Shown here piece after piece: positions 1,941 to 5,964 of a stretch of DNA of 22,158 nucleotides. This DNA is from a virus, in IMG/VR virus record IMGVR_UViG_3300048905_000094, positions 1 to 22,158 of that record; one strand, given 5' to 3'. How positions within the stretch are numbered: the first letter of the stretch is position 1; every line of letters starts with the position of its first letter. The notes beneath the pieces were generated by a model. The model made no database searches. It saw only the letters and a list, made by a program, of their open reading frames with translations, and had not been told where the DNA came from. Made by a program: the position numbers and the translations under genes.

Positions 1941-3047
1941 TCACACAGCACGGTCCGATTTCGAAGCCTTTTTTACGGTCATCTTCCGACTTAGGCGGGT
2001 CATTGCATCCTTAGCGAGCCGCTGTTGTTCTGCTTCGCGGCTATAAAGTTCAGCGTGCTGGATATCATCATGGCCCAAGGTCTCCATTAACTGGCGGGTG
2101 GTCGAGCCGGATTCGGCTAGCAATTTGCCCAGCGTTTTTCGGAGACCGTGCAGGCTACAGCCCTTTGGCATGCCGGCAAGGTTGGTCCAGTGCGACATCA
2201 TGCCAGTTAGGGATTTCCCGGAAAAGGGGTTTCCATAACCATTGATCAGGACAAATTCCTTGCTCCTGTCGAGCGGTGCAAGAATTTCGATCATCATGGG
2301 CGTGAGGGGCAGGACAAGCGTCTTGTCGCCCTTCTTGGTGGTGATGGTCGCCGTCCGGTTCTTTAAGTCGATGTCGCTCCATTTGATCTTGACGACATCG
2401 GAGCGGCGATTGCCGAGCCAGAGTGCAAGTCCATAGGCAGTTCGCGCCGCAGAACCGAGCGGCCATCTGGCTTCAAACGCGGCACGCTCTTCCTCTGTCC
2501 ATGCACGCCAGCCCTTGTACTCCGGTCGGTAGGAGAGCTTGTAGGTAGGATCGCTATCTATCCATTCCTCATCGAGTGCCACGTAAATCATCTTGCGAAC
2601 CGCAACCAGCAGATGTTTGGCTTTGTGGGGCGTTTCATGAAATCTCGCTAGCAGTTCCTTTACGTGCCGGCGTTTCAGATCGCGCACCAGCATATCGCCC
2701 CATTTGGCCGTGCCATTTTCCACAAGCAGCAGCTCAAGAAATTCTTCGGCAAGCCGTGTGTTCTTATCTTTCGTGGCCGGATCGTACTTGAGCCATTCGG
2801 GAGTGCGTTGCACTTTTCGCCATCCATCGCGGAATGAACCCTGGGCAACCGCGCCCGGCATGCCAATGACTTTAGCGGTGGTCGGTTTTCGCCCTTCAAT
2901 CGCTGCTTTGTAATGCTGTTCAAATTGGGGATCGCCCGGCTGACCGGGCAATGAGACCGTCTTTCCGGAACGGCGAAACCGCCAGCGGGTGGTGCCGTGG
3001 CGGTCTTCGAAGGATGATGCAAAGGGATAATCGGGGTGCGTAGCCAT
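1941..3047 (-). CDS. int: Tyrosine-family phage integrase
   Basis: A 368-residue site-specific recombinase that would integrate and excise the prophage by recombining attP and attB. The C-terminal catalytic domain shows the tyrosine-recombinase signature: Arg at 214/215 in GNRRSDVVKIKW, a Lys in the beta hairpin near 239, H300-x-x-R303 in LHGLRKT, His326 in LGHDD, and the nucleophile Tyr335 in AELYSR. Residues about 75-170 form the helical core-binding (SAM-like) domain, and the N-terminus could be an arm-binding region. Length is normal and all catalytic residues are present, so it is probably active. The ATG at 3047 lies 14 bases after the stop of the excisionase gene, so the two are co-transcribed. 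The attachment site itself was not found. Confidence 0.95.
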   Translation of the reverse strand: MATHPDYPFASSFEDRHGTTRWRFRRSGKTVSLPGQPGDPQFEQHYKAAIEGRKPTTAKVIGMPGAVAQGSFRDGWRKVQRTPEWLKYDPATKDKNTRLAEEFLELLLVENGTAKWGDMLVRDLKRRHVKELLARFHETPHKAKHLLVAVRKMIYVALDEEWIDSDPTYKLSYRPEYKGWRAWTEEERAAFEARWPLGSAARTAYGLALWLGNRRSDVVKIKWSDIDLKNRTATITTKKGDKTLVLPLTPMMIEILAPLDRSKEFVLINGYGNPFSGKSLTGMMSHWTNLAGMPKGCSLHGLRKTLGKLLAESGSTTRQLMETLGHDDIQHAELYSREAEQQRLAKDAMTRLSRKMTVKKASKSDRAV

Positions 3048-3061
3048 AAGCCACTCTACTT

Positions 3062-3310
3062 CTAGGGGTGCCGGCCTGACAATATCTCGTCAATCATGTT
3101 GACGCCTTCGTCCGGCAGTTCCGTGAACGCTGCGTCCAAGGCAATGCGATCCCAAACCACGCGGCCATCAATTTTCTTTGCCTTCGGCATGCGACGGTCG
3201 GCGACGAGCTGGTCAAATTTTGTGGTGCTGACGCCAATGTATCTTGCCGATGCTTCTCGGCTTAATCCACGCGGCGGGTAGGCTATACCGTCAGTTCGCT
3301 CCGCTTTCAT
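3062..3310 (-). CDS. Small HTH protein, probable excisionase
   Basis: An 82-residue basic protein with a MerR/AlpA-like helix-turn-helix: LSREASARYIGVSTTKFDQLV, followed by DRRMPKAKKIDGRVVWDRIALD, where the R-M-P and the D-G-R-V-x-W pattern are typical of excisionase-type winged helices. Such proteins bend attachment-site DNA and push the integrase toward excision. It ends just before the integrase gene. The start ATG (3310) is preceded by AGGAC about 7 bases upstream. Just before that, at 3324-3332, lies a short GCGATAATT-like word resembling a half operator of the phage switch. Family assignment is good; the role as Xis is inferred mainly from position. Confidence 0.75.
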   Translation of the reverse strand: MKAERTDGIAYPPRGLSREASARYIGVSTTKFDQLVADRRMPKAKKIDGRVVWDRIALDAAFTELPDEGVNMIDEILSGRHP

Positions 3311-4376: not shown

Positions 4377-4715
4377 TTATTGCTGCGCGCTAGAGACTTC
4401 GCGCGGCGTGAACATGTCGTGTTGGCGGGGATGCTCGGTCGAAAGCGCGCCGTCCTCGACAACCCAAAAGACGGAGTTCTTGCGAGGCAGTTTCGGCGTC
4501 TTGGACTCCATGTCGGCGGATATCGTGACCATGCCGTCCTTGACGGACAGGCCAAGTTTCAGAGTCACGGCCCCCTTGAACGTCGCCATGGGATTGCCTT
4601 CCGACATGGCGGACAGCTTTTCGAGCGTGGTGCCGATCTCCGCCGAAAAGGCCGGGTTGAGTTGGCCGTTTTCGAGCATGCCTATGATCATTGAGGCATC
4701 GCGTATTTTCTTCAT
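4377..4715 (-). CDS. Conserved phage protein of unknown function (112 aa)
   Basis: A 112-residue protein with no family I can name. The frame is open much further upstream (to 4946), but that part crosses a repeat element and a different small gene. The ATG at 4715 has a strong AAAGGA site 8 bases upstream and is the better start. The sequence begins MKKIRDASMIIGMLENGQ. It has a central beta-like region (TFKGAVTLKLGLSVKDGMVTISADM) and an FWVVEDGALS segment; the C-terminal tail is polar. It is soluble, without cysteines or membrane segments. It sits directly upstream of the DUF2303 gene, a pairing I believe is common in related prophages, so the two proteins may work together. Confidence that it is a gene is high; function is unknown. 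Confidence 0.75.
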   Translation of the reverse strand: MKKIRDASMIIGMLENGQLNPAFSAEIGTTLEKLSAMSEGNPMATFKGAVTLKLGLSVKDGMVTISADMESKTPKLPRKNSVFWVVEDGALSTEHPRQHDMFTPREVSSAQQ

Positions 4716-4735
4716 GCGCGGTTTCCTTTGGGCGG

Positions 4736-4876
4736 TTAGTGCGAAAGCATGAGTGCCAGCACGGCGAGCGCCATGGCGGCGGTGATGAGACCGATTGCAG
4801 CGCAGAGCGCGCGCACTTCCTCTTCGAGCGGTGGCAGGCTCGTGGGGGCCTCTGTCATTGGGGAAATGCGGAACAT
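4736..4876 (-). CDS. Small single-pass membrane protein (46 aa)
   Basis: A 46-residue reading frame beginning MFRISPMTEAPTSLPP. An acidic stretch (LEEEVRALC) is followed by a hydrophobic helix AAIGLITAAMALAVLALM that runs almost to the C-terminus, LSH. The ATG (4876) follows GGAGATCACATC, a good ribosome site with an 8-base spacing, and that site belongs to the conserved hairpin leader repeated in front of the next gene upstream. It ends 20 bases before the start of the 112-residue gene. Small membrane proteins of this kind in early phage operons are sometimes involved in superinfection exclusion or host inhibition, but nothing in the sequence shows the role. Confidence 0.65.
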   Translation of the reverse strand: MFRISPMTEAPTSLPPLEEEVRALCAAIGLITAAMALAVLALMLSH

Positions 4877-4892
4877 GATGTGATCTCCGTTC

Positions 4893-4936
4893 ATCCGTTC
4901 GGGAAACCGGCCCGAAGGCCGGAAACCGGAGCGGAT
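4893..4936 (-). repeat. Hairpin leader element, copy A
   Basis: In the minus-strand transcript this reads ATCCGCTCCGG, UUU, CCGGCC, a UUCG tetraloop, GGCCGG, UUU, CCCGAACGGAT. It forms a two-storey hairpin: an outer 11-bp helix with two mismatches, a symmetrical UUU/UUU internal loop, and a perfect 6-bp inner stem capped by cUUCGg, an exceptionally stable loop. It lies 7 bases after the stop of the 76-residue gene and just before the ribosome site of the 46-residue gene. Copy B has the same outer helix and internal loop. Confidence 0.8.
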
Positions 4937-4942
4937 GGGGGA

Positions 4943-5173
4943 TCACACGACGATATCGCCGAGTGCCTGGCTAACGTCTTCCAAGTTCGAAACGCCTTCA
5001 TCTAAGGCGTCAATTGCTGTTTGCGCGTCTTCGCCCTTTTGGCCGTCTTGAAAGGATTCAGGCATGTTGTCGAAATAGTCCTGCTCTTCGTCGCTGCAGG
5101 TTTCCAGAATGCTCTTGGCCTCTTCGATCATCGCGATTGCGCGTGCGATTTCTTTGCGACGTTCTTTGTTCAT
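4943..5173 (-). CDS. Small acidic phage protein (76 aa)
   Basis: A 76-residue, strongly acidic and helical protein of unknown function. After a basic start (MNKERRKEIARAI) it has an amphipathic helix (AMIEEAKSILETCSDEEQDYFDNMPESFQ) and a C-terminal helix ending DVSQALGDIVV, in a pattern that suggests a small helical bundle or dimer. Short proteins of this type recur in early operons of alphaproteobacterial phages, but I cannot name the family. The ATG (5173) follows GGAGATCGAGTTTC, with the GGAG contributed by the conserved leader element, copy B, upstream. The gene is flanked by one hairpin element on each side, a cassette-like arrangement. Confidence 0.7.
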   Translation of the reverse strand: MNKERRKEIARAIAMIEEAKSILETCSDEEQDYFDNMPESFQDGQKGEDAQTAIDALDEGVSNLEDVSQALGDIVV

Positions 5174-5187
5174 GAAACTCGATCTCC

Positions 5188-5233
5188 ATCCGTTCGGGAA
5201 ACCGCCTCGCGTGAGGCGGAAACCGGAGCGGAT
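5188..5233 (-). repeat. Hairpin leader element, copy B
   Basis: The outer arms (ATCCGCTCCGG and CCCGAACGGAT in the transcript) and the UUU/UUU internal loop are identical to copy A. The inner stem differs, with CCGCCTC pairing GAGGCGG (7 bp) around an ACGC loop. The bases changed on both sides yet pairing is preserved. The conserved block continues into GGAGATC, the ribosome site of the 76-residue gene, and begins 6 bases after the stop of the 54-residue gene. Confidence 0.8.
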
Positions 5234-5239
5234 AGAGAA

Positions 5240-5404
5240 TCAGGCGGCGCGTGCGGTTTCTGCTGCGCGCAGCATTTCCGCCGCCTCGGTGGCGTGCTTC
5301 GCGATTTCGTCCTTGGTGAAACCTTCGGCCCGTAACTCGGCCTCAGTCATGCCGACGCCGCGTTCGCGTGCCAGATCGGCCATCTCTCTCGGAATATTGC
5401 GCAT
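5240..5404 (-). CDS. Small helical phage protein (54 aa), first gene of left operon
   Basis: A 54-residue protein beginning MRNIPREMADLARERGVGMTEAEL and ending in an Ala/Glu-rich helix (HATEAAEMLRAAETARAA). The middle, AELRAEGFTKDEIAKHA, resembles a small helix-turn-helix (two helices around GFTKDEI) but is too short to assign. The frame is open upstream to 5527; the ATG at 5404 has GGAG five bases upstream and lies downstream of the predicted promoter, so I take it as the start. It is the first gene transcribed from the leftward promoter at 5509-5537, after a leader of about 100 bases. The function is not known; a small regulatory or host-interfering protein is possible. Confidence 0.65.
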   Translation of the reverse strand: MRNIPREMADLARERGVGMTEAELRAEGFTKDEIAKHATEAAEMLRAAETARAA

Positions 5405-5475
5405 GTTTTCTCCATCGTTGCGTTGAGCCGGGCGCAGGCAGTTCGCAAGAAAGCACGAGTTTGCCCGGTCGAATG

Positions 5476-5500
5476 CCGAGCCTGCGTACGCAAGGCTCGG
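5476..5500 (-). promoter_or_regulatory. Near-perfect palindrome at 5' end of the left early transcript
   Basis: The sequence is CCGAGCC, TGCGTACGCA, one unpaired A, then GGCTCGG. All 24 paired bases fit a long stem with a single bulge. With the -10 box predicted at 5509-5514, transcription would begin near 5502, so the RNA would start 1-2 bases before the hairpin. A 5'-terminal hairpin could stabilise the message or act as a nut-like recognition site; it could alternatively be a protein-binding DNA site. Confidence 0.55.
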
Positions 5501-5508
5501 ATGCGCCG

Positions 5509-5537
5509 AAATTCGCGATAATCGCAAAATAAGTCAA
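5509..5537 (-). promoter_or_regulatory. Predicted leftward early promoter (PL-like)
   Basis: Reading on the minus strand: -35 TTGACT (5537-5532), a 17-base spacer, and -10 GAATTT (5514-5509). The last 11 bases of the spacer are the operator word GCGATTATCGC, so a bound repressor would block polymerase. It would drive the 54-, 76-, 46- and 112-residue genes, DUF2303, xis and int. The -10 is weak by E. coli standards, but a TTGAC-type -35 is the dominant element in alphaproteobacteria. Confidence 0.6.
5515..5525. promoter_or_regulatory. Operator GCGATAATCGC (left)
   Basis: An 11-base palindrome with 5-base arms GCGAT/ATCGC around a central A, adjacent to the -10 box of the leftward promoter. 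The identical 11 bases occur at 6760-6770 in the rightward promoter, the expected pattern for a CI-type operator used at both early promoters. Confidence 0.7.
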
Positions 5538-5551
5538 GACAAAAAATGGAG

Positions 5552-5565
5552 ATAATCGCGATTAT
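5552..5565. promoter_or_regulatory. Perfect 14-bp palindrome, second left operator
   Basis: ATAATCGCGATTAT reads the same on both strands. It lies about 15 bases upstream of the -35 box of the leftward promoter. Its core ATCGCGAT recurs at 6775-6782 over the rightward start site. It is a plausible binding site for the Cro-like protein or a second repressor dimer. Confidence 0.6.
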
Positions 5566-5697
5566 AAGTCAGCAAGCGCTAAGTTCAGCGCGCGAAATCG
5601 CGTTTTCCGCATGGAATGGCAGATCAAAAACGACTCGACACTGCCACCAGAAGGTGCTTTCTTGGCGTGAACGAACAAAGAACAAACAGGAGAGAAA

Positions 5698-5964
5698 ATG
5701 AAGAGGCCGCCGGTATATCACCCCGATGCAATGAGGTTGATTATCGAGTTGTCCAGCCTTTATGTGGCTTGCGACGACTGCGGCCATTCCCGAAATCTTG
5801 GGGTGGAAAGCCTACGAAAGGCTGTCGATTTAGGCGTCCATAACTACATGCAACTGTGCCGGAAAATCAGGTGCAGCGAGTGCCCAAAGGGCCTTCCGGC
5901 CTTTCGAAACCTCACTATTCGACCCACTTGGCGATGCGATGAGCCGCGTTATAGCATCGCGTGA
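5698..5964 (+). CDS. Zinc-ribbon-like small protein (88 aa)
   Basis: An 88-residue protein with two paired-cysteine knuckles: C-D-D-C-G-H near residues 25-30 and C-R-K-I-R-C-S-E-C near residues 54-62. A four-cysteine zinc ribbon is likely, which usually means nucleic-acid or protein binding. The start is well supported: AGGAGAGAAA precedes the ATG at 5698. It is transcribed from left to right between the two early promoters, opposite to the repressor, and its last 16 bases overlap the 3' end of the repressor gene (ending at 5949). A promoter for it was not clear in 5566-5690. Because the transcripts converge, its expression could interfere with repressor expression. I do not recognise a named family. 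Confidence 0.65.
   Translation: MKRPPVYHPDAMRLIIELSSLYVACDDCGHSRNLGVESLRKAVDLGVHNYMQLCRKIRCSECPKGLPAFRNLTIRPTWRCDEPRYSIA

Follow-up and report, generated by a model that had tools for sequence, protein, structure and literature searches.

A conserved two-part hairpin at gene borders in temperate phages of Rhizobiaceae looks like a structured joint for the exchange of single genes

Why would a temperate phage keep two copies of the same elaborate hairpin, with different inner stems, in front of two consecutive small genes? The window analysed here, the whole 22,158-bp stretch of the IMG/VR virus record IMGVR_UViG_3300048905_000094, contains a leftward early operon on the minus strand in which this arrangement occurs. 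The operon begins with a gene of unknown function encoding 54 aa (5240–5404, here gene A), followed by the first hairpin (5188–5233), a gene of unknown function encoding 76 aa (4943–5173, phrog_4068), the second hairpin (4893–4936), a gene encoding 46 aa (4736–4876, here gene C), a phrog_204 gene of unknown function (4377–4715), a DUF2303 gene (PF10065, 3417–4325), an excisionase-like regulator (3062–3310) and a tyrosine integrase (1941–3047). The latter two constitute the ordinary phage integration module, and we see no sign that it acts on the hairpins.

The initial annotation described two hairpins 250 bases apart with identical outer arms, a symmetrical UUU/UUU internal loop and inner stems that differ in sequence but stay fully paired, each filling the gap from a stop codon to the ribosome site GGAGATC in front of a small gene of unknown function. 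This description is correct, and if anything understated. Both hairpins are present on the coding (minus) strand at 5233–5188 and 4936–4893, they start 295 nt apart with about 250 nt between them, and they fold with an outer stem (ATCCG/CGGAT in the first copy, with outer arms identical in the two), a UUU/UUU bubble and an inner stem, which is CCGCCTC/GAGGCGG with the loop ACGC in the first copy and CCGGCC/GGCCGG with the loop UUCG in the second. The MFE z-scores are −5.5 and −3.1, respectively, and 0 of 200 shuffled sequences folded as well. Each copy lies between a TGA (5242–5240; 4945–4943) and a GGAGATC (5187–5181; 4888–4882) that precedes an ATG (5173; 4876), and the TGA of gene A lies at the foot of the first copy. 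Minor corrections are that the outer helix also holds a conserved C.C mismatch and a C.A mismatch, and that the downstream genes encode the 76-aa phrog_4068 protein and a 46-aa protein without a match. In the first copy the stem extends to 5183–5238 and pairs the ribosome site.

The initial annotation knew of no named RNA family with this form, and a comparison with Rfam agrees, as no family reached its gathering threshold in the window and none matched up to E 5 in the region 4700–5500. It had also stated that its reading would fall if no further copies, or no covariation, could be found. Both were looked for and both were found. A search of viral contigs with the core pattern CGGGAAACCG-N6-30-CGGAAACCGG gave 70 stretches, of which about 60 are real elements, and species-representative genomes gave 20 more real loci, all in Rhizobium, Agrobacterium, Allorhizobium, Sinorhizobium, Ciceribacter or Brucella. 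Pattern matches in Actinomycetota, Bacteroidota, Lachnospiraceae and other contigs (our loci L077, L079, L080, L083, L085, L087, L096, L098, L099 and some viral ones) lack paired arms and were set aside as chance. Most new contigs found with a bare 16-nt arm had no match to the model described below, so the arm alone is not the element.

A covariance model built from 66 distinct copies found divergent members whose core itself varies, and the family has about 95 distinct copies in temperate phages and prophages of Rhizobiaceae. The two copies of the window, which belong to the seed alignment, match the model (R1) with 69.9 bits (E 1e-16) and 65.6 bits, respectively. The model matched 18 of 395 Rhizobiaceae genomes, whereas wider samples of the order and class gave a single borderline match besides the seed genome. 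A borderline match outside Rhizobiaceae (L145:1501–1556, 31.6 bits) has a UCU/UCU bubble, a TGA at the 5′ foot and GAAGAGG...ATG downstream, and could be a distant relative in another family. Named phages that carry the element are Agrobacterium phages Rivra and Atu_ph08 and Sinorhizobium phage PBC5, and it is also found on a Rhizobium rhizoryzae plasmid near integrase and repressor-like genes.

Both helices covary strongly. In the 66 seed elements, in an alignment not fitted to the structure, 91% of pairs are standard and the covariation score is 0.374 against at most 0.085 when the structure is slid along the alignment; in the 95 distinct elements the values are 92.2% and 0.415 against at most 0.080, with two-sided changes in 14 of 16 pairs. 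As the search pattern fixed only the core, covariation of the outer and inner stems is not due to selection of hits, although the sequences are not phylogenetically independent. Outer stems range over ATCCG/CGGAT, ATCGG/CCGAT, AAGC/GCTT, AAAC/GTTT, CCACT/AGTGG and CTAACATT/AGTGTTAG, and inner stems over many sequences, with loops from tetraloops to long extensions; Brucella-type copies (loci L073, L078 and L124) have a long conserved inner arm (CTTTTTCCCGGYGTTGGGAATAAG) in place of the short inner stem. Nearly fixed are one U-A pair, the GG/CC pairs, three U.U mismatches and a C.C mismatch. The bubble columns are T/T in 87 to 94 of 95 copies, and in 79 of 95 the core is the two-fold symmetric GGUUUCC over GGUUUCC. 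This constancy is partly by selection, since the core was part of the first search pattern, but it is also seen in most copies found by the model alone. A purely inherited repeat without function, whose palindromes are kept perfect by template-switch mutation, is very unlikely: template switching can restore palindromes, but it would also erase the bubble and the C.C mismatch, which are kept, and the placement of the copies described below is far from random.

The copies are co-oriented with the flanking genes, as a stop of a frame of 40 codons or more lies at the foot in 115 of 124 on the sense strand and in 16 of 124 on the antisense strand. The base pairs themselves are less clear on which strand folds. 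Wobble pairs in the inner stem favor the sense strand (G.U 15, A.C 1), but one outer column (8/61) is C.A in 41 of 95, which would be G.U on the other strand, and computed folding is better on the antisense strand in about 74%. Orientation and place thus argue for an mRNA element, but the base-pair data alone do not prove it, and the choice between RNA and single-stranded DNA as the folded molecule is not settled.

In 94 of 103 copies the in-frame stop codon ends −9 to +3 nt from the first paired base, and the start codon mostly follows 6–29 nt after the element (mode 15–16), with a Shine-Dalgarno match of at least 4 nt in 93. This placement, together with the full pairing of the ribosome site in the first copy of the window, could suggest a hairpin for translational coupling or repression, in which ribosomes ending the upstream gene open the stem and free the next ribosome site. 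However, ribosome sites are not consistently paired over the family (mean unpaired probability 0.36 with the element and 0.46 without), and coupling does not explain the fixed bubble. We regard this option as unlikely, and masking of the ribosome site is not general. Translational control, one of the two options raised by the initial annotation, is therefore neither shown nor excluded.

Each of the 20 virus records that were scanned whole carries one site only, with one or two copies, and by rough gene calls the site comes after 0–2 genes of its operon in 49 of 64 loci, at a median of about 270 bp from the operon edge. This position recalls that of lambda nutR after cro, and one alternative is a nut- or put-like antitermination RNA, where the nascent hairpin binds host RNA polymerase or Nus factors and lets the polymerase read through terminators in the long early operon, cassette exchange being a by-product of a conserved repeat. 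One site per phage, a conserved unpaired bubble with variable loop and stems, the restriction to one group of hosts and the lack of a shared phage protein (see below) would fit this option. On the other hand, no boxA-like sequence (CGCTCTTTA) was found near the hairpins, some copies lie 2–4 kb into the operon, tandem copies around each cassette are not expected, and no terminator that the element overcomes has been shown, read-through not having been assayed here. We consider this possible but doubtful.

The other option raised by the initial annotation, a mobile gene-cassette joint, is directly supported, as is its interpretation as a whole. The site of the window exists in four states: between the same genes A and C, relatives have nothing but one element (locus L100), the 76-aa gene (window, L046), a 136-aa gene (L020, L050, L070, L095) or a 205-aa gene (L048), each gene flanked by two elements. 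L100 and L095 are two related prophage loci of one strain, Rhizobium lusitanum P1-7, and the outer flanks of the filled site match the empty site at 88% and 91% over 100 nt, as expected for recombination between two direct copies. In 22 loci with more than one copy, all 23 neighbouring pairs are on the same strand and a single ORF fills the space in 20 of them; the longest array seen has three joints in a row with one gene between each pair (L126:1203–2234). The same downstream gene is found behind 5–6 different upstream genes, and the reverse also occurs. Among pairs of elements sharing at least one homologous flank, 139 share only one and 42 share both. Homology breaks at elements more often than at other same-strand gene junctions in the same loci (0.78 against 0.51, within-locus permutation p = 2e-4), with the reservation that this comparison rests on simple gene calls of our own, related loci and metagenomic records.

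Arrays of single-gene units in one orientation, empty and filled sites, and a stem with a bubble and a variable end recall integron attC sites, which would be folded as single-stranded DNA and used by a recombinase. However, the core boxes RYYYAAC and GTTRRRY occur as a pair in 0 of 95 elements on either strand, no recombinase is shared by all carriers, and the place of the crossover varies, which makes this option unlikely. As to a dedicated integron integrase, none was identified; the window has only the ordinary phage integrase with its excisionase and no protein family is common to the carriers, observations that do not decide the matter either way. Inner stems travel with either flank, so no single fixed crossover point is seen. 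The 76-aa and 136-aa cassette genes are otherwise different but share about 45 nt at their 3′-ends just upstream of the second copy (SQALGDIVV and NQALGDIAE; 4943–5000 of the window and the matching part of L020), so some exchange happens just inside the cassette. These observations fit homologous recombination in and near the element better than a site-specific recombinase. A universal annealing recombinase was not found: RecT is clear in only 1 of 20 carriers and weak in three more, and ERF was found in 0 of 20. In these four carrier phages (L146, L147 and virus records G007 and G1172) the RecT-like gene lies about 2–3 kb downstream of the joint in the same direction.

The strict bubble in a helix whose loop and ends are free suggests a reader that sees the bubble. 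No protein family was present in more than 8 of 13 carriers compared, which include several unrelated phage lineages, by BLAST at E 1e-4 plus profile iterations, and we infer that any reader is probably a host factor. A further alternative is an RNase III processing site of the T7 early-mRNA type, the hairpin being cut to separate cistrons. The intercistronic position, the helix length (11–23 pairs, median 16) and the bubble inside a long helix agree with this, and the two-fold symmetric core would suit a dimeric enzyme. RNase III, however, needs no such fixed bubble sequence and is universal, while the element is confined to one bacterial family and to one site per phage. Cleavage was not examined, and we hold this option, too, to be doubtful.

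We favor, with moderate confidence, the explanation that the element is a portable, structured intercistronic joint of Rhizobiaceae temperate phages. In this view its 5′ arm travels with the end of the upstream gene and its 3′ arm with the ribosome site of the downstream gene, and because the arms and core are standardised, an upstream end joined to a downstream start would generally re-form a complete hairpin. As 88% of outer-helix cells stay paired in spite of shuffling, pairing is probably selected. Homologous recombination (short-homology or strand-annealing) inside the element would insert, remove or swap the gene between direct copies. In the transcript the hairpin would lie in the untranslated gap, with a terminating ribosome at one foot and an initiating ribosome at the other, and it most likely works as an RNA read at its GGUUUCC/GGUUUCC bubble by a host factor, keeping expression of the cassette genes independent of which neighbour they have, by processing, stabilising or insulating the mRNA. 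Our data demonstrate the conservation of structure, the position and the exchange of genes at the element, whereas RNA as the acting molecule, a host reader and homologous recombination as the route are inferences, and there are no expression or recombination data by which its effect could be judged. A more far-reaching reading, which we put forward only tentatively, is an integrase-free gene-cassette platform, where a self-completing RNA joint read by the host lets a phage plug single genes into the promoter-proximal slot of its early operon by recombination inside the joint, while every junction remains a working expression unit.

Elements at phage gene borders have been described before, but we found no description of this one in the literature searched, in which most subscription papers were missing. 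The nearest are the ESAS/SAS repeats of Cluster K mycobacteriophages (PMC3203893), which are inverted repeats with a variable spacer just upstream of ribosome sites of non-structural genes, are tied to genes of different families and are of unknown function. The present element shares the inverted repeat and variable spacer just upstream of the start. ESAS, however, come with the 13-nt SAS (GGGATAGGAGCCC) at the ribosome site, which has no match with 0–2 mismatches in the window, and they occur at about half of 11–19 sites per genome, without a described bubble or covariation, whereas here there is one site per phage, with single-gene arrays and in different hosts. The PeMobs of T4-type phages (Arbiol et al., 2010, cited in PMC4177764) are mobile intergenic regulatory cassettes with a stem-loop that go with gene shuffling, and carry an early promoter and a terminator-like stem. 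We found no sigma-70-like match in 4700–5750, by a simple consensus scan that did not cover other promoter types, and no terminator-like match (a G+C stem followed by a U run) at either hairpin. The T7 RNase III sites are likewise intercistronic hairpins with an internal loop in early phage mRNA, but they are not known as cassette joints and their bubble sequence is not fixed in this way. Lambda nutR and HK022 put are structured RNAs near the start of an early operon recognised by the transcription machinery, but their structure is different, and here tandem copies flank genes.

Phage modular evolution was long proposed to need linker sequences between genes. The element described here is a compact, recognisable linker with a well-supported new fold and unusually clear cassette behaviour, found in unrelated phages of one bacterial family and with natural empty and filled sites, even within one strain, which makes it possible to test directly how single early genes are swapped. 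Its nearly fixed symmetric U.U bubble furthermore points to an unknown reader in Rhizobiaceae. It also gives a search handle for such genes, mostly of unknown function, namely whatever lies between two joints. Of the genes behind the joint, gene C (MFRISPMTE...), which is a conserved flank of the site in the window and its relatives, is among the commonest, and its product looks like a single-span membrane peptide.
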